Below are positions 22,433-53,701 of a stretch of DNA of 64,000 nucleotides, piece by piece. Source of the DNA: Rhodanobacter sp. GTDB taxonomy: Bacteria; Pseudomonadota; Gammaproteobacteria; Xanthomonadales; Rhodanobacteraceae. The first letter of the stretch is position 1; each line of letters starts with the position of its first letter. A program made the position numbers and the translations under genes. Location: the NCBI GenBank assembly GCA_004298505.1, contig SCRO01000025.1:1-64000 (forward strand). The letters are read 5' to 3'. A model generated the notes under the pieces. The model saw only the letters and a list, made by a program, of their open reading frames with translations, had not been told where the DNA came from and ran no database searches.

Positions 22433-22494
22433 CTCTGTCACGATAGTTGTCCGCCCCATTGATCAGACCACCCTGGGGCGGATGGAGTATTCCC

Positions 22495-22983
22495 GTGAGC
22501 ACTTACAGCGTTGAACTCAAAGAACAGATCGTCAAGAAGATGATGCCACCGAACAGCCAGACCGTCGCTGCGATCAGCCGCGAAACCGGCATCTCGGCAC
22601 CGACCTTGTACGCTTGGAAGAAGCAACTTCAAAGCCAAGGACGTGTCGTGCCCTCCAAGCCTACCCACCCGGATCGCTGGGACGCCAAAGCCAAGTTGGC
22701 GGCGGTGATTCAGAGCGCCGCCTTGAACGAGGTCGAGCGTTCAACCTATTGCCGCGAACGCGGCCTGTATGTGGAACAACTGGATGCCTGGAAACAGGCG
22801 TTCGAGGCGATGGATCCACGCAACCCATCGGCTAGCCAAGCCGATACGACGGCGGCCCGCAAGCAGGTCCGCGCATTGGAGAAAGAGCTTCGACGCAAGG
22901 AGAGGGCGCTGGCTGAAACCGCCGCGCTGTTGACGCTGTCAAAAAAAGCCAGGGCCATCTGGGGCACCGACGCGGACGATTGA
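22495..22983 (+). CDS. IS3-family transposase OrfA
   Basis: This 162-residue protein has an N-terminal helix-turn-helix (TVAAISRETGISAPTLYAWK) for terminal-repeat binding and a C-terminal coiled-coil (RKQVRALEKELRRKERALAE). The GTG start at 22495 follows GATGGAG. A slippery run of seven A then G (22941-22948) lies 12 codons before the stop in the right phase for -1 frameshifting into orfB, the usual way to make the OrfAB transposase. Confidence 0.87.
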   Translation: MSTYSVELKEQIVKKMMPPNSQTVAAISRETGISAPTLYAWKKQLQSQGRVVPSKPTHPDRWDAKAKLAAVIQSAALNEVERSTYCRERGLYVEQLDAWKQAFEAMDPRNPSASQADTTAARKQVRALEKELRRKERALAETAALLTLSKKARAIWGTDADD

Positions 22984-24047
22984 TTCCGGCGTCGATGAAA
23001 CAGATGGCCCTCACCCTGATCGATGAAGCCGTAGCTGCCGGCGCGCGCCGCCACAAGGCCTGTGAGGTACTCGGCATCACCTGCCGCAGCCTGCGCCGTT
23101 GGCGCGTTGCCGAGTGTCCGATTGACGCGCGCAAAGGTGCCGAGCGCAGCTGCCCACACGCACTGAGCGACGAGGAAAAGGAGCAGATGATGGACGTATG
23201 CAACAGCGCCCCATACAAGAGCCTGCCGCCCTCGCAGATCGTGCCGCGATTGGCAGACCAGGGCGTGTATATCGCTTCGGAATCCAGCTTCTATCGGGTC
23301 CTCAAGGCCCGAGGGCAGGACAACCACCGTGGCCGCGCTCAGGCACCGCGAACGGTCGCCAAGCCCAAGGCATGGGCCGCGACCGCGCCCAATCAAGTGT
23401 GGTCATGGGATATCACCTACCTGCCGACCGCTGTGCGCGGCCAGTTCCATCGCCTGTACCTGGTGCTGGACATCTACAGCCGCATGATCGTGGGCTGGGA
23501 AGTGCATCTTGAGGAACTGGCGACCTATGCCGCACAGCTCATGGACAAGGCCTGCCTGCGCTATCACATCGCCAAGGATCAGTTGGTATTGCACGCCGAC
23601 AACGGCAGCCCGATGAAGGGGGCCACGATGCTGGCCACCTTGCAAAAGCTGGGCGTGGTGCCGTCCTTCAGTCGGCCCTCGGTCAGCAATGACAACCCGT
23701 ACTCCGAGTCGGCGTTCAAGACGCTCAAATACACGCCAGCCTATCCGCTGCAGCCCTTCGCCAGTCTCGACGACGCCAGACAGTGGGTGCAACGCTTCGT
23801 GGCCTGGTACAACACCGAACATCGGCACAGCGGCATCCAGTTTGTCACGCCACAGCAACGCCACGAGGGCAAGGATCAGGCCCTCCTGGAAGCCCGCACC
23901 GCCGTCTACGAGGCGGCCAAGTGCGCCATGCCAGATCGTTGGCGAAATCGTGACGTACGCGACTGGGACCCGGTCGGCACCGTCTGGCTCAACCCGGACA
24001 AGCCCGCCGGCGAACCGGCTCCCGTAACCAGGCAACCTGCTGCATGA
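22980..24047 (+). CDS. IS3-family transposase OrfB (DDE integrase core)
   Basis: About 355 residues, with a helix-turn-helix start and an rve integrase core. Catalytic residues are D in WSWDITYLPT, D in LHADNGSPMKG, and E in NPYSESAFKTLKY, the DDE triad with the expected spacing. It lies in the -1 frame relative to orfA and is probably expressed mainly by frameshifting at the A7G run; the TTG at 22980 overlapping the orfA stop or the ATG at 22995 could start free OrfB. It appears intact. Confidence 0.9.
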   Translation: MIPASMKQMALTLIDEAVAAGARRHKACEVLGITCRSLRRWRVAECPIDARKGAERSCPHALSDEEKEQMMDVCNSAPYKSLPPSQIVPRLADQGVYIASESSFYRVLKARGQDNHRGRAQAPRTVAKPKAWAATAPNQVWSWDITYLPTAVRGQFHRLYLVLDIYSRMIVGWEVHLEELATYAAQLMDKACLRYHIAKDQLVLHADNGSPMKGATMLATLQKLGVVPSFSRPSVSNDNPYSESAFKTLKYTPAYPLQPFASLDDARQWVQRFVAWYNTEHRHSGIQFVTPQQRHEGKDQALLEARTAVYEAAKCAMPDRWRNRDVRDWDPVGTVWLNPDKPAGEPAPVTRQPAA

Positions 24048-24465: not shown

Positions 24466-24495
24466 GGCCGTTATGGAGAGCTCTCCATAACGGCC
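24466..24495. repeat. perfect palindrome at ritC end of outer RIT
   Basis: GGCCGTTATGGAGAG (24466-24480) is followed directly by its exact complement (24481-24495), giving 15-bp arms with no loop. Its last five bases overlap the terminal inverted repeat. There is no counterpart at the ritA end. The inner element has a palindrome of equal arm length in the same place. Confidence 0.85.
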
Positions 24496-24533
24496 ATTAT
24501 GAAAAGTCCCCAGTTATGAGAAGTTCTGGGGTG
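24491..24533 (+). repeat. outer RIT inverted repeat, left
   Basis: A 43-base repeat, matching the complement of 31398-31440 at 40 positions. It contains two near-copies of TTATGAGAAG (TTATGAAAAG and TTATGAGAAG), suggesting two recombinase-binding half-sites, and ends TTCTGGGGTG. Confidence 0.88.
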
Positions 24534-24600
24534 GCGAGCGCCCGGATCACCTGGTACGTGGGCTCTCCTGTGCGCTCGTCCCGTTTTCCCCTTGTCATAA

Positions 24601-25617
24601 TCACAGCGTCTTCAGGAACTCCAGCAACGAGTCCGAGGCTCGGAAGCGCTTGGCTGGTGTGTCGGGATCCTGCAGCTTGGCGAGCGCCTTCTCCTTCATC
24701 TCGAGGCTCGCTTCCACATACTGATGCGTGGTGGTCGGACTCTCGTGACCAAGCCACAAGGCAATTCCCTCGATGGACTCGCCGGACTGCAGCAAATGCA
24801 TCGCTGTCGTGTGGCGCACGGTGTGAGGGGATATGTGGCGATCACGCAAGCTCGGCATCGCAGGGCTTGCCGCTACCACAGCCAGCGCGAGCCGCTGCGT
24901 GACATTGGTGCGCGTCATCGGATGGCCGTCCCGGTTAGGCAGCAGCACCGAGGCCGGTACCAGCTCGGGGTTCAGCCTCAACCAAGCCCGTATCGCCCTG
25001 ACCGTCGATCGCCACAAAGGCATCGTTCGCTGCTTGCGTCCCTTGCCGTGCAAGTGGACACAAGCGGCACCATCGAGCACGACATCGGCTACGCGCACAC
25101 CTGTGATCTCGGACACCCGCGCCCCGGTGTTGTAGAGCATGTGCAGCAGCAGGTGGTCGCGCTGGCTGGTCCAGCCTGCACCAGGCTTGCCGATAATCGC
25201 CAGCATCTCCTCGCGCGACAGGAAGCCGAGCATGGGTCGTTCAAAGCGTTTCATCGGCACGCCCAAGGCCTGCTCGACGACATGCAGCGCACCGATGTCA
25301 CGGTGGCCGGCGAACTTCAGGAAGGCGCGCAGCGCCGCCAGCCGGGCGTTGCGGGTGCGTACCGCGTTACCGCGCTCGTGCTCCAGATGGTCGAGGAACG
25401 CCAGGATCAGCGCCGGCGTGATGTCCTCCAGCCGGATCGCCGTGGGCTGCTTATGCAGATGACCCATGGTGAAGTCCATGAACAACACGAACGCGTCGCG
25501 GTAGGTCGCTACCGTGCATGGGCTCATCGCCCGTTGCTGAGTCAGGTGCTCGGTGAAAAAGGACTGCACCAGCGCGGCAAAGCTCAGCGGCGCTCGTGGT
25601 GTCGCCGCCCTACTCAT
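24601..25617 (-). CDS. ritC: Tyrosine recombinase RitC of outer element
   Basis: This 338-residue integrase has an N-terminal SAM-like DNA-binding domain (residues about 15-110) and a catalytic domain. Active-site residues are R in NTGARVSEITG, K in HGKGRKQRTMPLW, the HxxR in PHTVRHTTAMHLL, H in WLGHESPTTTHQY, and the nucleophile Y in the same segment. It appears intact. Its ATG lies within the last eight bases of the ritB stop region (ritB ends at 25610). It is the downstream member of the trio. Specific symbols follow the RIT naming by position. Confidence 0.87.
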   Translation of the reverse strand: MSRAATPRAPLSFAALVQSFFTEHLTQQRAMSPCTVATYRDAFVLFMDFTMGHLHKQPTAIRLEDITPALILAFLDHLEHERGNAVRTRNARLAALRAFLKFAGHRDIGALHVVEQALGVPMKRFERPMLGFLSREEMLAIIGKPGAGWTSQRDHLLLHMLYNTGARVSEITGVRVADVVLDGAACVHLHGKGRKQRTMPLWRSTVRAIRAWLRLNPELVPASVLLPNRDGHPMTRTNVTQRLALAVVAASPAMPSLRDRHISPHTVRHTTAMHLLQSGESIEGIALWLGHESPTTTHQYVEASLEMKEKALAKLQDPDTPAKRFRASDSLLEFLKTL

Positions 25618-25810
25618 CGTCGTCGGCCCACGGATTGACGAAGCGCTCGAAGCGCTGGCCGACCATGCCCATCAGCTCGGGCACGCCCGTGAGATACCAG
25701 TAGGTGTTGGAGACCTTGACGTGACCGAGGTAGGTCGACAACGCCAGCATGCGCTGGTTGATGTCCACACCTTGCTCATGCCAGAGCACCAGCCGGCGTA
25801 CGGCGAACGA
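25610..25810 (-). pseudogene. ritB: outer ritB, 3' part (C-terminal 66 residues)
   Basis: The frame has no start of its own. It encodes SFAVRRLVLWHEQGVDINQR, then LSTYLGHVKVSNTYWYLTG with the catalytic His and the Tyr nucleophile, and ends in NPWADDDE. It is the severed continuation of 29261-30034: joining the two with the inner element and one copy of the 7-bp repeat removed gives a continuous 324-residue recombinase. Confidence 0.9.
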
Positions 25811-25844
25811 ATGCCGCTAATTCCGGGGGCGGAATTAGCGGCAT
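25811..25844. repeat. palindrome at ritC end of inner RIT
   Basis: ATGCCGCTAATTCCG (25811-25825) is exactly complementary to 25830-25844 around the loop GGGG. Its right arm ends with GCGGCAT, the first seven bases of the terminal repeat. Arm length (15) equals that of the outer element's palindrome. Confidence 0.88.
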
Positions 25845-25880
25845 AACTCCGAGGCCAGGATTATTCCGAGTGCGGCATCA
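25838..25880 (+). repeat. inner RIT inverted repeat, left
   Basis: A 43-base repeat identical to the complement of 29225-29267. GCGGCAT occurs near both of its ends, and TCCGAG occurs twice inside, which suggests paired recombinase-binding half-sites. Confidence 0.92.
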
Positions 25881-25938
25881 AAGGACGCCGCGCGGTGGGG
25901 TGAATGGCTGAGCCAGCGGCAACCAATACTCGGAATTA

Positions 25939-26937
25939 TCAGAGTCCCTTCAGGAAAGCCATGACGCGGTCGCTGGGTCGGTAGCGGGGAATCGAGACGT
26001 TCTTCGTGGTCGTTGCGGCGAGCGCGCGTTCCTTCAGTTGCATGTCCTCGTGTAAATAGATGGATGTGGTCTCCGGTGATTCATGCCCGAGCCAGAGTGC
26101 GATCACGGTCTGGTCTGCGCCGTGGTGTAGCAGGTCCATCGCCAGGGTGTGGCGGAGCACATGCGGGGTTACCCGCTTGCGTGCTAGTGATGGGCATTGC
26201 TGGCATGCGACGGGCAGATGCTTGTCCAGCATGTATTGCAAAGCATCGTGGCTCAACGCAGTTCCTCGCGTGGTTGGAAACACAGGTTCGCAAGGCTGTC
26301 CTTGGCGCTCTCGCAACCAGCTGCGCAGGACCAGAACGGTGTCTTTGCCCAGCGGCGTGCAGCGCGTCTTGCGGCCCTTGCCTTCGCATCGAACGTGCGC
26401 GCCGTAGCCGAGCACGATGTCCTCGCAGCAAAGGCCGGTGAGCTCTGCGGCGCGTAGCCCCGTCTGGACAGCCAGCATCAGAAGCGCCCGATCACGGTGC
26501 CCAGACCAAGTCGTGAGGTCTGGCGCGGCAAGCAACGCGTCGACTTCGACTGATGTCAGGAAGGCGATCGGACAGCGTGAATACCGCTTGCTCGGCATGG
26601 CTAACACGCGCTGCGCCACGGCGCTGTGCTCCGGCGCATGCAAGGCCACGTAGCGAAAGAAGGAATGGATTGCCGCGAGCCGCACGTTTCGACTGCGGGC
26701 GCTGTTCTTGCGGTCGCGCTCCAGATGCTCCAGGAATGCTCCCAGCAGTGGCGTGTCGAGTTCCGGCACTGTCAGATTCGAGGGCGCCTTGCCCAGGCGC
26801 CGCTGCGCATACTGCAGCAGCAAGCAAAAGGTATCGCGATAGCTCGCTACGGTGTGCGGGCTCGCCTGACGCTGCTGCATCAGCCGATCCATGAAGAACG
26901 CCTGGAGAAGCGCGGGAAGCGTACTGGTGGCGCTCAT
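25939..26937 (-). CDS. ritC: Tyrosine recombinase RitC of inner element
   Basis: This 332-residue integrase has an N-terminal core-binding domain and a catalytic domain with R in QTGLRAAELTG, K in CEGKGRKTRCTPL, HxxR in PHVLRHTLAMDLL, H in WLGHESPETTSIY, and the nucleophile Y there. The ATG at 26937 overlaps the ritB stop (ATGA). A much longer upstream reading frame exists only because of overlap with ritB and is not used. It is closest in pattern to the outer RitC, as expected for position-equivalent genes. Confidence 0.9.
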   Translation of the reverse strand: MSATSTLPALLQAFFMDRLMQQRQASPHTVASYRDTFCLLLQYAQRRLGKAPSNLTVPELDTPLLGAFLEHLERDRKNSARSRNVRLAAIHSFFRYVALHAPEHSAVAQRVLAMPSKRYSRCPIAFLTSVEVDALLAAPDLTTWSGHRDRALLMLAVQTGLRAAELTGLCCEDIVLGYGAHVRCEGKGRKTRCTPLGKDTVLVLRSWLRERQGQPCEPVFPTTRGTALSHDALQYMLDKHLPVACQQCPSLARKRVTPHVLRHTLAMDLLHHGADQTVIALWLGHESPETTSIYLHEDMQLKERALAATTTKNVSIPRYRPSDRVMAFLKGL

Positions 26938-27869
26938 GATCGAGGTCCTTGCCTGGAGCGCTCCACGTGTCGCAGCGCGTAACGCAGCAACTGCGGCGTC
27001 GCGGTCAGATACCAGTACGTGTCGGTGACATGTGCATGCCCGAGGTAGGTCGACAGCTCCGGCAGGTGACGCTCGACATCGACGCCGCGTCGATACCAGC
27101 CGAGGAGTGTCTTGATGGCCAGTCGATGGCGTAGATCGTGCAGCCGAGGTCCTCGGGAGTCGTCGGCGCCGCGCAGGCCGATCTCGTGCGACAACTTGAC
27201 AAAGGTCCACCGCACGCACCACTCCGTCAGCCGGGTTCCTCGGTCCGAGACAAAGAAGCTCGGCGTGTCGAGGTCCTGGCAGTATCGATCTCGATATGCG
27301 GCGTAGCGCTGCAATGCACGTTGCGTGGAGAGATGCAGCGGCACGTAGCGCGACTTACCGAACTTCGTGTCACGGATCGTCAACACGCCGTTGACGAGAT
27401 CGACGTCGTCGCGATCGAGTCGCAATGGTTCGTTGGCCCGCAGACCAGTGGCCACATACAGGCCGAAGAGCGTGACGAACGTATGAGGCCGCAGGCCGGT
27501 GGCAGATGGTAGGCGGCGGGCGGCCTCGAGCAGGCGCGTGATCTCCTCGTCGCGATACAGGTATGGGTCGGGGCGGCGGTATCGGTGCGGAAGCAAATCC
27601 GATGGTGGCACGATGGTGCGCGGATCGATCGCGCTGCAATATTGCGCGAAGCGACGCACCATCCCAAGGCGGTTCGCCCATTGTGCAGGCTGCGCGGCGG
27701 CGGGCTGCGTCGCCCAAGCCAATGCAAGTTCGGACGTGATGTGCGCAGCCCCTTGCCGATCGGCGAAGTCGACAAAGCGTTGCAGCAAGCGTCCGGGCAG
27801 GCGTAGCTTGTAGCCGAGGGCGCGATGGACCGCGAGATACTCTTGGAGTGCGGCTTGTAACTTGCTCAT
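26934..27869 (-). CDS. ritB: Tyrosine recombinase RitB of inner element
   Basis: The protein has 311 residues. Catalytic residues are R in ATGLRANEPLRL, K in DTKFGKSRYVPLH, HxxR in LHDLRHRLAIKTLL, H in YLGHAHVTDTYWYL, and Tyr in the same block. It starts at the ATG (27869) overlapping the ritA stop. The FGKSRYVPLH segment closely parallels FGKSRRVPLH in the outer RitB, confirming equivalence. It is intact, so the inner element has a full trio. Confidence 0.9.
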   Translation of the reverse strand: MSKLQAALQEYLAVHRALGYKLRLPGRLLQRFVDFADRQGAAHITSELALAWATQPAAAQPAQWANRLGMVRRFAQYCSAIDPRTIVPPSDLLPHRYRRPDPYLYRDEEITRLLEAARRLPSATGLRPHTFVTLFGLYVATGLRANEPLRLDRDDVDLVNGVLTIRDTKFGKSRYVPLHLSTQRALQRYAAYRDRYCQDLDTPSFFVSDRGTRLTEWCVRWTFVKLSHEIGLRGADDSRGPRLHDLRHRLAIKTLLGWYRRGVDVERHLPELSTYLGHAHVTDTYWYLTATPQLLRYALRHVERSRQGPRS

Positions 27870-29104
27870 GACGCACCTCCCGGCCACGGCAGTGCAATGC
27901 CACGCAAGGCGGCGATGTCCACCTTGGCGTAGATCTGTGTGGTCGTCGGCAGTCGGTGACGCAGCAATTGTCCGATCTCCCCCAGGGACGCGCCGCGGCG
28001 AAGCAGATGGGTGGCGAGGGAGTGCCGCAGCAGGTGGGCCCCCTTGAATTTGGGGTCCAAGCCGGCGCGCCGGAGGGCGCGCCGAACGATGCAGCAAATG
28101 GCGACCGGGCCCGCAAGACCCTGTTGCGGGGCCATCATCCGAATGAACACGTGGCGCGTCGCACACGCCGGCCGGACATCACAAAGATAGCAAGCCAATG
28201 CCGAGCCAACTTCCGCGGGCAGTGGCAATCGTTCCAGCCGCTGCCCCTTGCCCCGCACGATAATCTCCCCGCGCTCCCAGTCCAGATCCTCCAAGGTCAT
28301 GGCCACCACTTCGCCGCCACGCAACCCAAGCCGGGCCAGAAGTAGCAGGATTGCATAGTCGCGCTTGCCAGTCGGTGAGCTGCAATCGCAGCCCGCAAGC
28401 AACCGTTCAACCTGATCGTCAGGCAGCGACTTGGGCAGATGGGAAAGTCGCCAGTTCGCCACCCCGGGTAAGGTCCTGGCCAAGTCGGTTTGAATGGCGC
28501 CGCGCTGCAGCAAGAAACGCAGGAACGCGCGCAGCGCGGTAACGACTCCCTTGCCATGGCTGCGACTCACCCGTTGGATCTGACGAAGAATGAAGCCGTG
28601 CAGGTCCTGAGGACGCAACTGCTCGAGGCGCAGCGCCTTGCGCCCGGACCGCTCATCGAGAAAACGCTGCACGATCGGCAAGTACGAGGCCACTGTTGAC
28701 CGTGACAGGCCTCGCTCGGCGTGGAGGAACTCCTCGAAATCGCGGGTCAGGCACGCCGCCGGGCTCCGATCGATGTGCTGCACTTCCGCCGCGATGTCGT
28801 CATGGCCACGCAGATACTGGAGAAGCTGTTGCCCGGTAGCCGAATCGCCTCGTCGCGCCCTGTCCCTGCTGCGACGGCTTGCCTGAAACTGCGTCAGGCG
28901 ACCTTCGTCAAGCGCTGCCAGAGAAAGCCGGCGCCGCTGGAGCCAACGGCTGAGATCGGCCAACAGGTCACACTTCGCACGAACGGTGTTCTGCGCGTAC
29001 CCCTGGCCAGCGAGTTGCGCTGCAAAGCCCTCGACGTGGCAGGCCAACGGCCCATTGCAAGACTGATCAAGTGCAGTTGCTGCACCGTGGTGAGTGAGCG
29101 TCAT
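27866..29104 (-). CDS. ritA: Tyrosine recombinase RitA of inner element
   Basis: This 412-residue recombinase is the longest of the trio because it has an extra N-terminal region before the core-binding domain. Catalytic residues are R in RLGLRGGEVVAM, K in GKGQRLERLPL, HxxR in AHLLRHSLATHLL, H in LLRHRLPTTTQIY, and the Tyr nucleophile; it ends ALPWPGGAS. The ATG at 29104 follows AAGGAG by seven bases. It is the first gene of the inner operon. All three genes are coupled by ATGA overlaps, which implies equal, linked synthesis. Confidence 0.9.
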   Translation of the reverse strand: MTLTHHGAATALDQSCNGPLACHVEGFAAQLAGQGYAQNTVRAKCDLLADLSRWLQRRRLSLAALDEGRLTQFQASRRSRDRARRGDSATGQQLLQYLRGHDDIAAEVQHIDRSPAACLTRDFEEFLHAERGLSRSTVASYLPIVQRFLDERSGRKALRLEQLRPQDLHGFILRQIQRVSRSHGKGVVTALRAFLRFLLQRGAIQTDLARTLPGVANWRLSHLPKSLPDDQVERLLAGCDCSSPTGKRDYAILLLLARLGLRGGEVVAMTLEDLDWERGEIIVRGKGQRLERLPLPAEVGSALACYLCDVRPACATRHVFIRMMAPQQGLAGPVAICCIVRRALRRAGLDPKFKGAHLLRHSLATHLLRRGASLGEIGQLLRHRLPTTTQIYAKVDIAALRGIALPWPGGAS

Positions 29105-29224
29105 CGTCCGTCTCCTTGAAAATCCGGGAAGATCCCCGGCTGGAGACGACAGTCGAATAATGCCGAGAAATCAAGCGCTACTCCGGACGCAAGTCCAGCA
29201 ACGACATCACGTGTCGAAGACTAC

Positions 29225-29267
29225 TGATGCCGCACTCGGAATAATCCTGGCCTCGGAGTTATGCCGC
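29225..29267 (-). repeat. inner RIT inverted repeat, right
   Basis: The 43-base partner of 25838-25880, identical over its full length in inverse orientation. Its outer seven bases ATGCCGC coincide with the target-derived codons for Leu-Arg-His of the outer ritB. Confidence 0.92.
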
Positions 29268-30034
29268 AAGTCATGAACACGCGGCCTGCCGTGGCTGCCG
29301 CGATCGACCCAGCCCAGTTGCTTGCGCAGTCGCTCGAAGATGCGGTGGACCTGACGGTCGCCAACCGGTTCCCCGAGCAACTGCCCACGCGTGGTGATGA
29401 AGAACGACGCGTTGGGCGTCGTGCGCACATGGCGAGCTCGCTGCGTCCGGTAGCGTGCCAGCGCCTTGACCGCGCTCGGGTGCAGTGGCACCCGTCGGGA
29501 CTTGCCGAACTTGCTCTGACGGATCGTCAGCGCCTCGGCCTTCAGGTCCACGTCGGCGTCCTGCAGGCCGATCGCCTCTGAGATGCGCAGTCCCGTGCAA
29601 GCGATCAGGCCGAACAGCGTCTCGATCACCGCCGACCGCAGACCGCCCGGTGGCCCAAGCTTCCGGGCTGCAGCCAGCAGTTCGACAATCTCCTGCTCGC
29701 GATAGATGTGCGGTGACATGCGGCCAGGAACGCGGCCGAAGACAGCTTCGTCTGGTACTTCGGTGGCCGGTTCGAACTGCCGCAGCCAGGTCGTGAACGG
29801 GCGCAACATCTTCAGCCGACGCGCCGAAGTGGCGCGGTCGCCGCGGCCACCCTTGGCCTGGCGTGCCCAAGCGGCCATCCGATCGACTGTCAGCGGACCT
29901 TGGTGACCGGCATCGGCGACGTCCCGGGCGAAGCGCGCCAGTCCGTAAGCCATGCTGCTGAGTTTGAAGCCGAGACGCCGCCGCTCGGCCAGATACTGCT
30001 CAACTCTGACCTGCAAGCTAACTGGGGTGCTCAT
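29261..30034 (-). pseudogene. ritB: outer ritB, 5' part (258 residues)
   Basis: It encodes the N-terminal core-binding domain and most of the catalytic domain: R in CTGLRISEAIGL, K in QSKFGKSRRVPLH, and RVHDLRH, where the inner element interrupts it. Past that point the frame reads 17 element-encoded residues to a stop at 29207, so a truncated protein without the Tyr nucleophile is possible. The ATG at 30034 overlaps the ritA stop. The missing end is at 25610-25810. Confidence 0.9.
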
Positions 30035-31284
30035 GCTGCACTCCCGGGCCACGGCAGTGCGACGCCGGCCAACGCGCCGTGGTCAAGCTTGGCGTAGATA
30101 AGCGAGGTGTTGAGCGACCGGTGCCGCAGTACGTCAGCTACTTCCTTGATCGAGCCACCCTGGTTGACGATCTGACAGGCCAGCGTGTGACGCAGAGCAT
30201 GCGAACGCCCATGGGGGATACCCACGCGCCGGAATGCATCGCGCACGACACGCCGAATGGCGTCTACGCCGATGGGTTCGTCATGTGGCGCGAGGTGACG
30301 CACGAACACCGCCCCGTCGCTGGTCTTGGGGCGCTCGTGGCGGATGTAGTCCTCCAGCGCTTGGCCGGTGACTGCCAGCAATGGCAGCACGTCTTGGCGC
30401 CGCGCCTTCGTGTACTTGAGCGTGATGATGCCTAAGCGCCAATCGATGTCAGCCAGTTGCAGTCGGTTGATCTCGATGCTGCGCAGACCCAGGTCGAGCG
30501 CCAGGCGAACGACGGCGTAACCACGTCGAGGTGACCGAAGGACCGCCGTGAAGGAACTCAGCAACCGATCCACTTCCTCAGGCTTGAGGCTGCGAGGCAA
30601 CGGCGCGAGGCTCCAGTGTGCGGGGGATGCGATGACGGCCAGCAGCGGTTGCACCGCGTCGCCGCAAGTCGCGCGGTAACGCAGGTACGCGCGCAACGTG
30701 GCCGCGATCGTGATGGCGTTGCTGATGGTGCTGAGCGAGTCCAGTTGATCGGCGATGAACCGGCGTAGGTCCTCGGTCTGCAGCTCGCCAAAAGCGACTG
30801 GCCGACCTGCGAACTTCGCCACCAGCAGCCGTTCGATAATGCACAAACGACTACGACGCGTTCCGACCGACAGGCCCCGCGCGCCACTCATGTGGGCGTC
30901 GTAACGGTGGAGCTCATCGGCGATCGGGCCTGCTGGTGCTGGTAGCTGCGCGATGACATGCCCCGCGCGCAACATTGTCAGCAGGGACATGAGCGCCGCA
31001 TGTATCTCGCGTGGTGCGCGCAGTCCGCCACCGGGACAGTCGCAGCGCGGCAGGTGGTCGCGCAGAAACTGCTCAACGCAGCCTTCGTCGAGCAGGCCCA
31101 CCGGAAGGCGACACATCGACATCCAGTGAGCAAAGTGCGCCACGCTACTCAAGCAGCGGGCTGAAGTGTTGGTCGCATAGTCGCCGCGCCTGAGCCGCGC
31201 GACGTACGCCGGAACGTGAGCAGCCAGTGGGCCTTCGAGCAGCCAGGCTCGAACCGTGAGGGGCAACGCAGGAATCTTGGTCAT
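30031..31284 (-). CDS. ritA: Tyrosine recombinase RitA of outer element
   Basis: This 417-residue recombinase has an extended N-terminal region and a catalytic domain with R in DLGLRSIEINRL, K in KYTKARRQDVLPL, HxxR in SHALRHTLACQIV, H in VLRHRSLNTSLIY, and the Tyr nucleophile; it ends ALPWPGSAA, like the inner RitA. MTKIPALPL at 31284 is chosen because GGAGA lies five bases upstream; the frame continues 30 codons further upstream without a likely start. It appears intact. Confidence 0.88.
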   Translation of the reverse strand: MTKIPALPLTVRAWLLEGPLAAHVPAYVARLRRGDYATNTSARCLSSVAHFAHWMSMCRLPVGLLDEGCVEQFLRDHLPRCDCPGGGLRAPREIHAALMSLLTMLRAGHVIAQLPAPAGPIADELHRYDAHMSGARGLSVGTRRSRLCIIERLLVAKFAGRPVAFGELQTEDLRRFIADQLDSLSTISNAITIAATLRAYLRYRATCGDAVQPLLAVIASPAHWSLAPLPRSLKPEEVDRLLSSFTAVLRSPRRGYAVVRLALDLGLRSIEINRLQLADIDWRLGIITLKYTKARRQDVLPLLAVTGQALEDYIRHERPKTSDGAVFVRHLAPHDEPIGVDAIRRVVRDAFRRVGIPHGRSHALRHTLACQIVNQGGSIKEVADVLRHRSLNTSLIYAKLDHGALAGVALPWPGSAA

Positions 31285-31397
31285 GACGGTCTCCAGAAGT
31301 GGAACCGTCAGTGCTGCCCGAGCAGCGAAATTATGTCCAGCGCCGTGCGCCGTCACGCCTCGGATCACAAGCATTGGCGCGGCCTGCCGGCTTACGT

Positions 31398-31440
31398 CAC
31401 CCCAGAGCTTCTCATAACTGGAGACTTCTCATAATGGCCG
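31398..31440 (-). repeat. outer RIT inverted repeat, right
   Basis: Inverse partner of 24491-24533, with three substitutions in 43 bases. It ends in GGCCG (31436-31440), which repeats the first five bases of the element at 24466. Confidence 0.88.
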
Positions 31441-31499
31441 AACTGAGACATTCGTGACCGTGCAAAACCCGGGCCGAAGCCGGCTCTCTTGCGCTTCCG

Positions 31500-31825
31500 C
31501 TTTCGCCGCCGCGCAGCGGTGGCGCACCGAGTGCGCGCCAGGATGGAGCGCTGCTCTACCCGGGGCCCCTGTGCGGCGGTGAGGTGGGGACGACAGGCCC
31601 CGCAGGGGGAATCGGCACGATGCCGATTCCTTTTCGCCAGCACAGGGATGTGCTGTCGAAAAGCCCGGCCCCGCCTCACGGACTTGCCGCCCAAGGCGAC
31701 GGCATGGATGCCGGAGTTGAGGCAACGCAGGAGCGGTTGCCCGATGGGCGGCAAGCGCCAAGTGGGGTGGCCTTCTCTGTTGGTTACTTATCTCTTGGCC
31801 ACGCAAGAGATAAGTAACTCGGGCC
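31500..31825 (-). repeat. dispersed repeat, copy B
   Basis: It is the inverse counterpart of 16483-16760. A perfect stem-loop GTTACTTATCTCTTG (31783-31797) pairs with 31804-31818 around GCCACG. Shared blocks include CCCGGGGCCCCTGTGCGG, TTTTCGCCAGCACAGGGATG, CTGTCGAAAAGCCCGGCCCC, GGCAAGCGCCAAG and GGGGTGGCC. This copy has about 45 extra bases in the middle. With copy A it brackets the accessory island in inverted orientation. Confidence 0.75.
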
Positions 31826-53663: not shown

Positions 53664-53701
53664 ACACAGCCCGCGCCGGGAAACCCCGGCGCGGGCTGTG
53701 T
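53664..53701 (-). terminator. 17-bp hairpin between dnaK and dnaJ
   Basis: A perfect stem (53664-53680 with 53685-53701) encloses the loop AAAC. No T-run follows on the minus strand. In many bacteria a hairpin here lowers dnaJ output relative to dnaK or protects the dnaK end; either fits. Confidence 0.65.

Follow-up and report, generated by a model that had tools for sequence, protein, structure and literature searches.

RIT elements, as set out in the covered part of PMC3414803, consist of three overlapping tyrosine-recombinase genes in the order ritA-ritB-ritC, about 3.5 kb long, with an inverted repeat and an overlapping palindrome. A table published in 2023 (PMC10214605, covered in part) enters NT (not tested) for RIT elements under target specificity, empty site and movement. 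The elements themselves are already known; the target rule described here was found in no paper of the RIT literature covered. Neither a target rule nor a logic of borders nor a clade that targets RITs appears in the sections of PMC3414803 and PMC10214605 covered, and an earlier statement is possible in Ricker 2013, Van Houdt 2009 or Nielsen 2017.

Two other systems come close. Strand-biased circularizing elements (SEs; Tn6283) resemble the inner of the two elements described below in their tyrosine recombinases and in a 6-bp spacer between inverted core motifs, and they resemble its clade in leaving different 6 bp at the two ends (PMC10214605 and PMC5991714, as far as covered). They differ in having four genes (intA, CDS2/tfp, intB and CDS4/srap), and the SE descriptions covered contain no two-spacer joint. 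GInt islands encode three integrases together, as RIT elements do, but need an extra product beside them (PMC5385486, in the part covered).

The window (the whole stretch of DNA analysed, 64,000 nt) contains two elements, one within the other, that share with described RIT elements (Van Houdt 2009/2012, Ricker 2013) the gene trio, the inverted repeat and the overlapping palindrome. In the inner element ritA, ritB and ritC are adjacent in that order, overlapping by 4 and 7 nt, and its length, its 43-bp terminal inverted repeat (TIR) and the palindrome beside ritC are those of a RIT (Table 1). Its proteins group with their own Rit type, both with HMMs built partly from the inner element itself and in a RitB tree of 54 rows, from which L087 (which has a stop), L215 and L175 were left out. 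Identity between inner and outer proteins is 35% for RitA, 41% for RitB and 38% for RitC, and cross-type matches are weaker. The outer element likewise has trio, TIR and palindrome, with its ritB split. Membership of the SEs (a set of intA, tfp, intB and srap) and of the GInt islands (ginD beside three integrases) was rejected, as the interval between the TIRs is taken up by three recombinase genes.

The inner RIT has a single copy in its own genome, and a DNA search of 197 genomes, its own included, returned beyond that copy only matches shorter than 200 nt. Among viral contigs, 40 stretches matched a pattern and none was a relative; phage records gave no match at E<=1e-30. The matches listed for 120 genomes, again including its own, held no orthologous empty site of the outer RIT. 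On its right side the outer RIT is flanked by a repeat that is dispersed in the genus.

Layout of the nested elements

The sequence-only reading had described two RIT trios on the minus strand, one interrupting the middle gene (ritB) of the other, with the inner RIT entering after the outer one; the nest is real, and that order of insertion stands. Its proposed 324-residue RitB is recovered, as without 25811-29260 there is a single 324-aa frame containing ..VHDLRHSFAV... The inner TIR is perfect over 43 bp, as claimed, and the outer TIR, given there as 40/43, runs to 46 nt at 91% complementarity and agrees with the earlier figure when trimmed to 43 nt. The borders assigned to both elements also hold, the inner one being ambiguous by 7 nt because ATGCCGC is present at both ends. 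Two features were absent from that reading: the inner insertion cuts the outer RitB at the Arg-His codons of its active-site box HDLRH, and in each element the palindrome is found at the ritC end only, outside or overlapping the edge of the TIR.

Table 1. Features of the nested elements, by position in the window
Feature	Position	Strand	Remarks
Outer RIT with terminal palindrome, interrupted by inner RIT	24466..31440	-	
Outer terminal palindrome, ritC end only	24466..24495	.	
Outer TIR, ritC end	24491..24536	+	pairs with 31395..31440: 46 nt, 91% complementary
Outer ritC, 338 aa	24601..25617	-	
Outer ritB 3' half (RHSFAV.. to stop)	25610..25810	-	
Inner RIT	25811..29267	-	3457 nt
Inner terminal palindrome	25811..25844	.	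6-bp centre between two 7-bp arms, each arm followed outward by a spacer; adjoins outer ritB 3' half
Inner TIR, ritC end	25838..25880	+	43 nt, 100% complementary to 29225..29267
Inner ritC, 333 aa	25939..26940	-	open frame
Inner ritB, 311 aa	26934..27869	-	open frame; own box II = RHRLAI, not RHxF
Inner ritA, 412 aa	27866..29104	-	open frame
Inner TIR, ritA end	29225..29267	-	direct junction with outer ritB 5' half
Outer ritB 5' half (from its start to ..VHDLR)	29261..30034	-	
Outer ritA, 417 aa	30031..31284	-	
Outer TIR, ritA end	31395..31440	-	

Target sites and independent insertions

We consider it very likely that clade I, to which the inner element belongs, prefers to land at the Arg-His codons of box II (HxxRH) within the ritB of other RITs, entering by crossover of a circle. 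Nineteen clade I loci were gathered by similarity to the inner RIT, blind to context (G238:C1149 and G1214:C446 lie outside this sample), and borders were readable in 17; L047, cut off by the contig at both TIRs, and L055, whose ends are degenerate, were dropped. Of the readable insertions, 13 are in ritB of other RITs, three hit the corresponding codons of other tyrosine-recombinase genes, and one (L050, basal in the tree) is in a gene with no recombinase match, at a site shaped like that in ritB (..DDLK/KNKF..). Sixteen of the 17 insertions share one two-codon position in a tyrosine-recombinase gene. Because L049 and L086 lie within other tyrosine recombinases, as does L044 on one side (on its other side Pfam matched nothing), ritB is, across these loci, the preferred but not the exclusive target of clade I. 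The junction at L215 reads LHDLR, and the HMMs found no longer ritB 5' half there; the flanks at L040, L044, L045, L046 and L084 are two like halves, which requires later recombination. A further search of 398 genomes added nothing to clade I; its second match, L085, belongs to clade II. These loci suggest that the nest in the window follows from target choice, a point that the earlier reading missed.

It is hardly credible that RITs insert almost at random into recombinase-rich plasmid or island DNA and that the nest arose by chance. They can cluster in such regions, pHG1 being an example (PMC2864759, in the part covered), but chance nesting is rejected by the common codon position. A single ancient two-RIT composite, inherited and spread as a unit, would suit the occurrence of the same arrangement in several species, and the sequence-only reading had named such a composite as the finding that would count against it. 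Nests do occur in several species, yet as independent events. On a plasmid of Mesorhizobium AR02, a strain with three copies, the inner copies of L215 and L054 are identical (3398/3398 nt) and sit in different host RITs, one of the grounds on which the inherited composite was rejected; we regard it as highly improbable. The inner elements of L043 and L048 are 98.7% identical in host ritB genes of 65% identity, those of L045, L046 and L057 are 96.5-99.5% identical in hosts of 65-88%, and those of L052, L053 and L054 are 96-98% identical in hosts for which blastn gave no match. L054 and L056 share a host RIT and carry the inner element in opposite orientations. Since near-identical or identical inner elements are found in divergent hosts, the clade I nests are, by these comparisons, independent insertions at one preferred site.

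Borders, palindrome and orientation

Clade I borders were read by script and clade II palindromes by eye, the script having passed over the latter in L077, L078a, L078b and L085 and labelled them direct; among other clades L145, L150, L155, L159, L160, L161, L163, L167, L090 and L091 were left out as unreadable, and L175-L180 were included in the mapping. In L152, L194, L196 and L200 the palindrome lies inside the repeat at both ends. The 34 clade I ends (17 loci) comprise 15 with the palindrome and 19 that are direct. Every palindrome end (15/15) adjoins the 3' fragment of the interrupted gene, which reads [RK][HN]xF, in either orientation, and 17 of the 19 direct ends read ..R of box II. The site, the borders and the palindrome rule, like the repeated independent use of the site, can be read from the sequences themselves.

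From these borders we infer that the inner element would be excised or copied as a circle with a dyad-symmetric joint, in the order TIR_A, 6-bp spacer, palindrome (7-bp arms flanking 6 bp), 6-bp spacer and TIR_C. Each spacer with its arms would form a tyrosine-recombinase core site and would read as an Arg-His codon pair, and either spacer could cross over with six target bases, with RitA, RitB and RitC as the presumed actors. On the crossover side the TIR would meet the 5' half of the disrupted gene; the other TIR would keep the palindrome, which would meet the 3' half, and the choice of spacer would set the orientation. Insertion would cut the host RitB short, ahead of its catalytic tyrosine.

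The spacers are unlike at the two junctions of L043, L048, L049, L053 and L054, and a strict 6-bp homology between element and target was rejected on that account. Because both encode His, the unlike spacers all end in CA. Tn916 and CTnDOT, unlike RIT elements, are conjugative and have a single integrase. Their coupling sequences resemble clade I in that the spacers of element and target may differ (PMC5991714, as far as covered).

The two orientations might instead arise by flipping of the inserted element in place, without use of either spacer of a circle, which we think unlikely. The 5' junction and the inner core form an inverted repeat, and orientation is nearly all that separates L054 from L056, as flipping would have it; but flipping would leave the centre of the palindrome as it was with respect to the 3' half, and in L040, L044 and L054/L056 the centre is reverse-complemented between orientations and therefore agrees with the circle prediction. 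In L196 (from another clade), L043 and L048 the two centres read alike, without the reversal, and the circle model then requires an extra flip. Three of the four informative within-genome comparisons (the three reversed cases against L196) disfavour flipping as the sole source of orientation.

Box II of the inserting clades and its meaning

The RitB of clade I itself reads RHxL in 17 of 19 members and in none of the 34 other RITs whose box could be read, a comparison made without L078c and L156 (no usable box II), L159, L091, L093 and L094. Such a RitB is probably a poor target, and clade I may in this way spare itself. The Phe-to-Leu change occurs only once on the RitB tree, so the link between RHxL and targeting counts as one event; L049 keeps Phe, yet is inserted at a KHTF site. 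Clade II inserts at the same codons, in ritC and other recombinase genes, and its own RitC reads VHRLRHTMA in 8/8. The Pro before His in RitC, lost in clade II, is absent also from 5 of 17 other RITs, and its loss argues for self-avoidance more weakly still than Phe-to-Leu in clade I.

Another possibility, to which we give appreciable but less than even weight, is that the target is a DNA motif (approximately GAYNTN, spacer, YNNNTTY) frequent in ritB, without an evolved preference for RITs or self-avoidance. The site of L050, of the same shape in a gene with no recombinase match, points that way, as do L049 and L086 in other tyrosine recombinases, but a motif leaves unexplained why clade I RitB and clade II RitC differ exactly there. 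It otherwise fits, and differs from an evolved preference for the ritB of other RITs in evolutionary meaning only.

More broadly, and with the chances evenly balanced, all RITs could be hyperparasites of other mobile elements, each clade having a dyad-symmetric attachment site with 6-bp spacers that fit codons in the best-conserved, frequently catalytic part of one class of transposase or recombinase gene. Their targets would be the Arg-His codons of ritB or ritC, the surroundings of the catalytic Tyr in other tyrosine-recombinase genes, the serine motif RQS in serine recombinases and a fixed site in the IS66 transposase; RIT-preying clades would have altered their own box II to spare themselves, in exactly the gene class that each attacks. 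Inteins and homing introns also find in highly conserved catalytic codons a target common to many hosts, as with clade I, but are spliced from the product, whereas a RIT insertion breaks the gene.

Clade I supplies a predicted attachment site and a predicted target of known sequence, and its RHxL is a natural target variant that may resist insertion; integration is therefore directly assayable. The rule bears on the movement and the targets of RIT elements and on their need for three recombinases, and it points to a transposon that would disable the engine of its own relatives at codons in which these have little freedom to change.

Nested elements in the window

The nesting of two three-recombinase units proposed in the sequence-only reading was recovered when both trios were mapped to the minus strand, with the outer ritB in two pieces. 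The perfect 43-bp inverted repeats that it had assigned to the inner trio were found, and the sequences on either side of the inner element, once joined, read as a single continuous frame, the 324-aa RitB it had described as restored. The outer RIT is bounded by 46-bp repeats that are 91% complementary. Inner and outer proteins pair by type (identity 35% for A, 41% for B and 38% for C), and the source genome carries one copy of each element. Two features go beyond that reading: the palindromes at the ritC ends, and the insertion point, which is exactly the Arg-His codons of box II (the HxxRH active-site motif) of RitB, here HDLRH. An inverted repeat with an overlapping palindrome is mentioned for RITs in PMC3414803.

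Coordinates of the nested RIT elements in the window
Feature	Position	Strand	Remark
Inner RIT, with palindrome	25811-29267	minus	three open rit genes
Inner ritA	27866-29104	minus	open, 412 aa
Inner ritB	26934-27869	minus	open, 311 aa
Inner ritC	25939-26940	minus	open, 333 aa
Inner palindrome	25811-25844		ritC end only
Outer RIT	24466-31440	minus	interrupted by inner RIT
Outer ritA	30031-31284	minus	
Outer ritB, two pieces	29261-30034 + 25610-25810	minus	
Outer ritC	24601-25617	minus	
Outer palindrome	24466-24495		ritC end only

Some part of the joined outer site was matched in 51 of 120 genomes (own included; E≤0.001; among the matches listed), and none of the matches listed for the 120 was an empty site in a relative. 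The right flank of the outer RIT (window 31437-31574) is the start of a dispersed repeat of the genus, several copies of which begin at or near the outer spacer (the six bases at the junction), TGGCCG. Immediately to the left, at 22447-24047, is an IS3-type transposase pair (HTH_Tnp_1, rve). Two more perfect hairpins, with arms of at least 14 bp and loops of at most 6 bp, lie at 31784-31817 and 53666-53699, the latter terminator-like in appearance.

Targets and borders of clade I

Clade I, the inner RIT and similar elements, was gathered by similarity to the inner element only, blind to context, from plasmids, species genomes (9 loci) and genome samples, one of which gave only the window's own genome and the other 2 of 299 genomes, one already in the set. 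The sample is small and uneven: 19 loci, comprising the window and RIT-bearing loci from elsewhere (L040, L043-L050, L051, which is L086, L052-L057, L084 and L215), of which 18 (all except L215) group together as a single branch in the RitB tree (support 96/88). Borders could be read in 17, leaving out L047 and L055. Thirteen of these insertions fall in ritB of another RIT, where the host pieces detected by HMMs end at position 250-252 or start at 243-248. Three lie in other tyrosine-recombinase genes: L049, whose PF00589 match of 23.7 bits is below the curated cut-off, L086, and L044, assigned by its 3' piece (RHSFATHLLQAGTDI), the other side (RHPFAV..) having no match in Pfam. The remaining one, that of the basal member L050, lies in a gene that matched no recombinase. 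This target site is not due to chance.

Sequence comparison shows the insertions to be independent events. On a Mesorhizobium AR02 plasmid, the inner elements of L215 and L054 are identical across 3398 nt in different host RITs, one host flank giving no blastn match and the other 71% over 103 nt; such copies tell against one inherited composite, the outcome that the sequence-only reading had named as contrary to its account. Likewise, inner elements are 98.7% identical between L043 and L048 (host ritB 65%), 96.5-99.5% among L045, L046 and L057 (hosts 65-88%), and 96-98% among L052, L053 and L054, whose hosts gave no blastn match at E≤1e-3. In L054 and L056 the host RIT is one and the same, present twice on a single plasmid.

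The 34 ends of the 17 loci follow a simple rule. A palindrome is present at 15, every one joined to the 3' piece of the target, which reads RHxF in 13 cases and KHTF or KNKF in the remainder. The other 19 ends are joined directly, and 17 finish at the box II Arg; one end of L050 reads ..DLK, and one of L052 abuts unrelated DNA. It applies equally to loci with the palindrome on the ritA side (L043, L049, L050, L054, L215) and to those with it on the ritC side (window, L048, L053, L056, L057, L086). Both sides carry a palindrome and a 3' piece in L040 and L044, and 5' pieces with no palindrome in L045, L046 and L084; we infer that these are the two products expected from recombination between oppositely inserted copies.

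Phe is the fourth residue (RHxF) in all 15 3' pieces of clade I targets. In RitB of the clade itself, 17 of 19 members carry Leu at this position; the other two, L049 and L050, are basal in the clade, and neither is inserted in ritB. Among 36 other RITs, 34 with a readable box, the residue is Phe in 31, Met in two, Tyr in one and Leu in none. Clade I may spare its own ritB through the change to Leu, a reading that is suggestive only, because it amounts to one change on the tree.

A proposed circle and crossover model

We propose an excised circle with the order TIR_A, GGAGTTA, spacer, TAATTCC, six bases, GGAATTA, spacer, TAACTCC, TIR_C (TIR_A and TIR_C being the terminal inverted repeats at the ritA and ritC ends), its joint forming two core sites in facing orientation. 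Since either spacer could cross over with the target, the TIR would receive the target's 5' half and the palindrome its 3' half, whichever the orientation. On this model the centre of the palindrome, when read outward, would be reverse-complemented from one orientation to the other, as is found in L040, L044 and L054/L056. Against this prediction, no such reversal is seen in L196, which belongs to another RIT clade and carries a palindrome at each end, or when L043 is compared with L048, whose genomes differ; both cases would need an extra flip of the centre.

Junction spacers are unlike each other in L043, L048, L049, L053 and L054, and all end in CA, as expected if both code for His. Differing spacers of this kind recall the Tn916 and CTnDOT coupling sequences and the footprint of 6 bp left by SE elements, as described in PMC5991714 and PMC10214605. 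L049 has a Lys codon at its 3' junction and an Arg codon at its 5' junction. Phage-type integrases can have Lys at that box II position. L054 and L215, whose elements are identical, both have TCGTCA as the 5' spacer but unlike 3' spacers. Together, these codons and spacers suggest that the 3' junction retains the spacer of the target and the 5' junction that of the element.

Clade II and other RITs

A second clade (L075, L076, L077, L078a, L078b, L082 and L085, tree support 99/96, plus L175 from outside the tree) is inserted at Arg-His codons in genes with a PHxxRH or VHTLRH box. The HMMs place the break in ritC at 261-265 in L075, L077, L078b and L085; the targets of L076 (PF00589) and L175 are other tyrosine recombinases, that of L082 is a weak match to ritC, and the flanks of L078a are mixed. 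L076 and L082 each have one end against unrelated DNA. Clade II behaves towards ritC and other recombinase genes as clade I does towards ritB. Its own RitC reads VHRLRHTMA in 8/8, and its ritC targets PHxxRH; this change is a weak sign of possible self-avoidance, because the Pro before His is also absent from RitC in 5 of 17 other RITs compared. The host box of L057, HDMRHVFAT, is like that of clade II RitBs.

On Cupriavidus pHG1 (L078 5700-19500), several RITs are nested, a clade II RIT lying inside the ritC of another and the broken ritA/ritB of a third adjoining. In L052 and L082, of different clades, the ritA-side TIR directly abuts nearly identical foreign sequence; an IS91-family transposase is close by in L052.

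Control RITs of other clades were taken blind to context (genomes matching at E≤1e-50: 9/250, 8/299 and 9/199, counting the query or own genome), and 25 additional loci (19 + 6) were mapped with RIT HMMs. Recombinase pieces at the RH position flank only L175, which is clade II; in the other 24, several of them short contigs with little flank, the HMMs found no RIT-gene piece across the borders. Readable borders mostly have the same architecture, with a palindrome at one end.

Separate Pfam searches of flank pieces gave a family match for 17 of 20: IS66 transposase beside eight RITs (L079, L080, L088, L092, L153, L154, L159, L162), serine recombinase (PF00239) beside two (L087, L089; insertion at an RQS motif by eye), and IS3-type (L157), rve (L160), IS91 (L152), DDE_Tnp_1 (L161) and DUF3489 (L166) beside one each; for L159, L160 and L161 the match gives the flank family only. 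The flank pieces of L078d, L164 and L156 had no Pfam match; L078d lies within a gene annotated as a site-specific integrase. By eye, L078d (L078 25477-28722), L152 and L151, RITs of other clades, are inserted close to the codons for the catalytic Tyr in genes of tyrosine recombinases. Among related genomes, 7/197 (own included) had a match at E≤1e-40. L196-L198, 99.97-100% identical copies in one genome, share with L191 one IS66 site (R-K-N-W-L-F, by eye), and one of the three has 3' pieces on both sides.

RIT elements are already known, as are the repeat and palindrome they carry and a number of insertions into mobile genes; PMC2864759 and PMC3414803 report insertions in an IS66 tnpA gene, radC and a Tn6049-like transposase gene. 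A literature search that did not extend to Ricker 2013 found no earlier account of a target rule, of the dyad attachment site or of a clade that targets RITs, and a table in PMC10214605 gives RIT target specificity as not tested. Given the transposase and recombinase flanks of the control elements, RITs generally seem to prefer the genes of other mobile elements.
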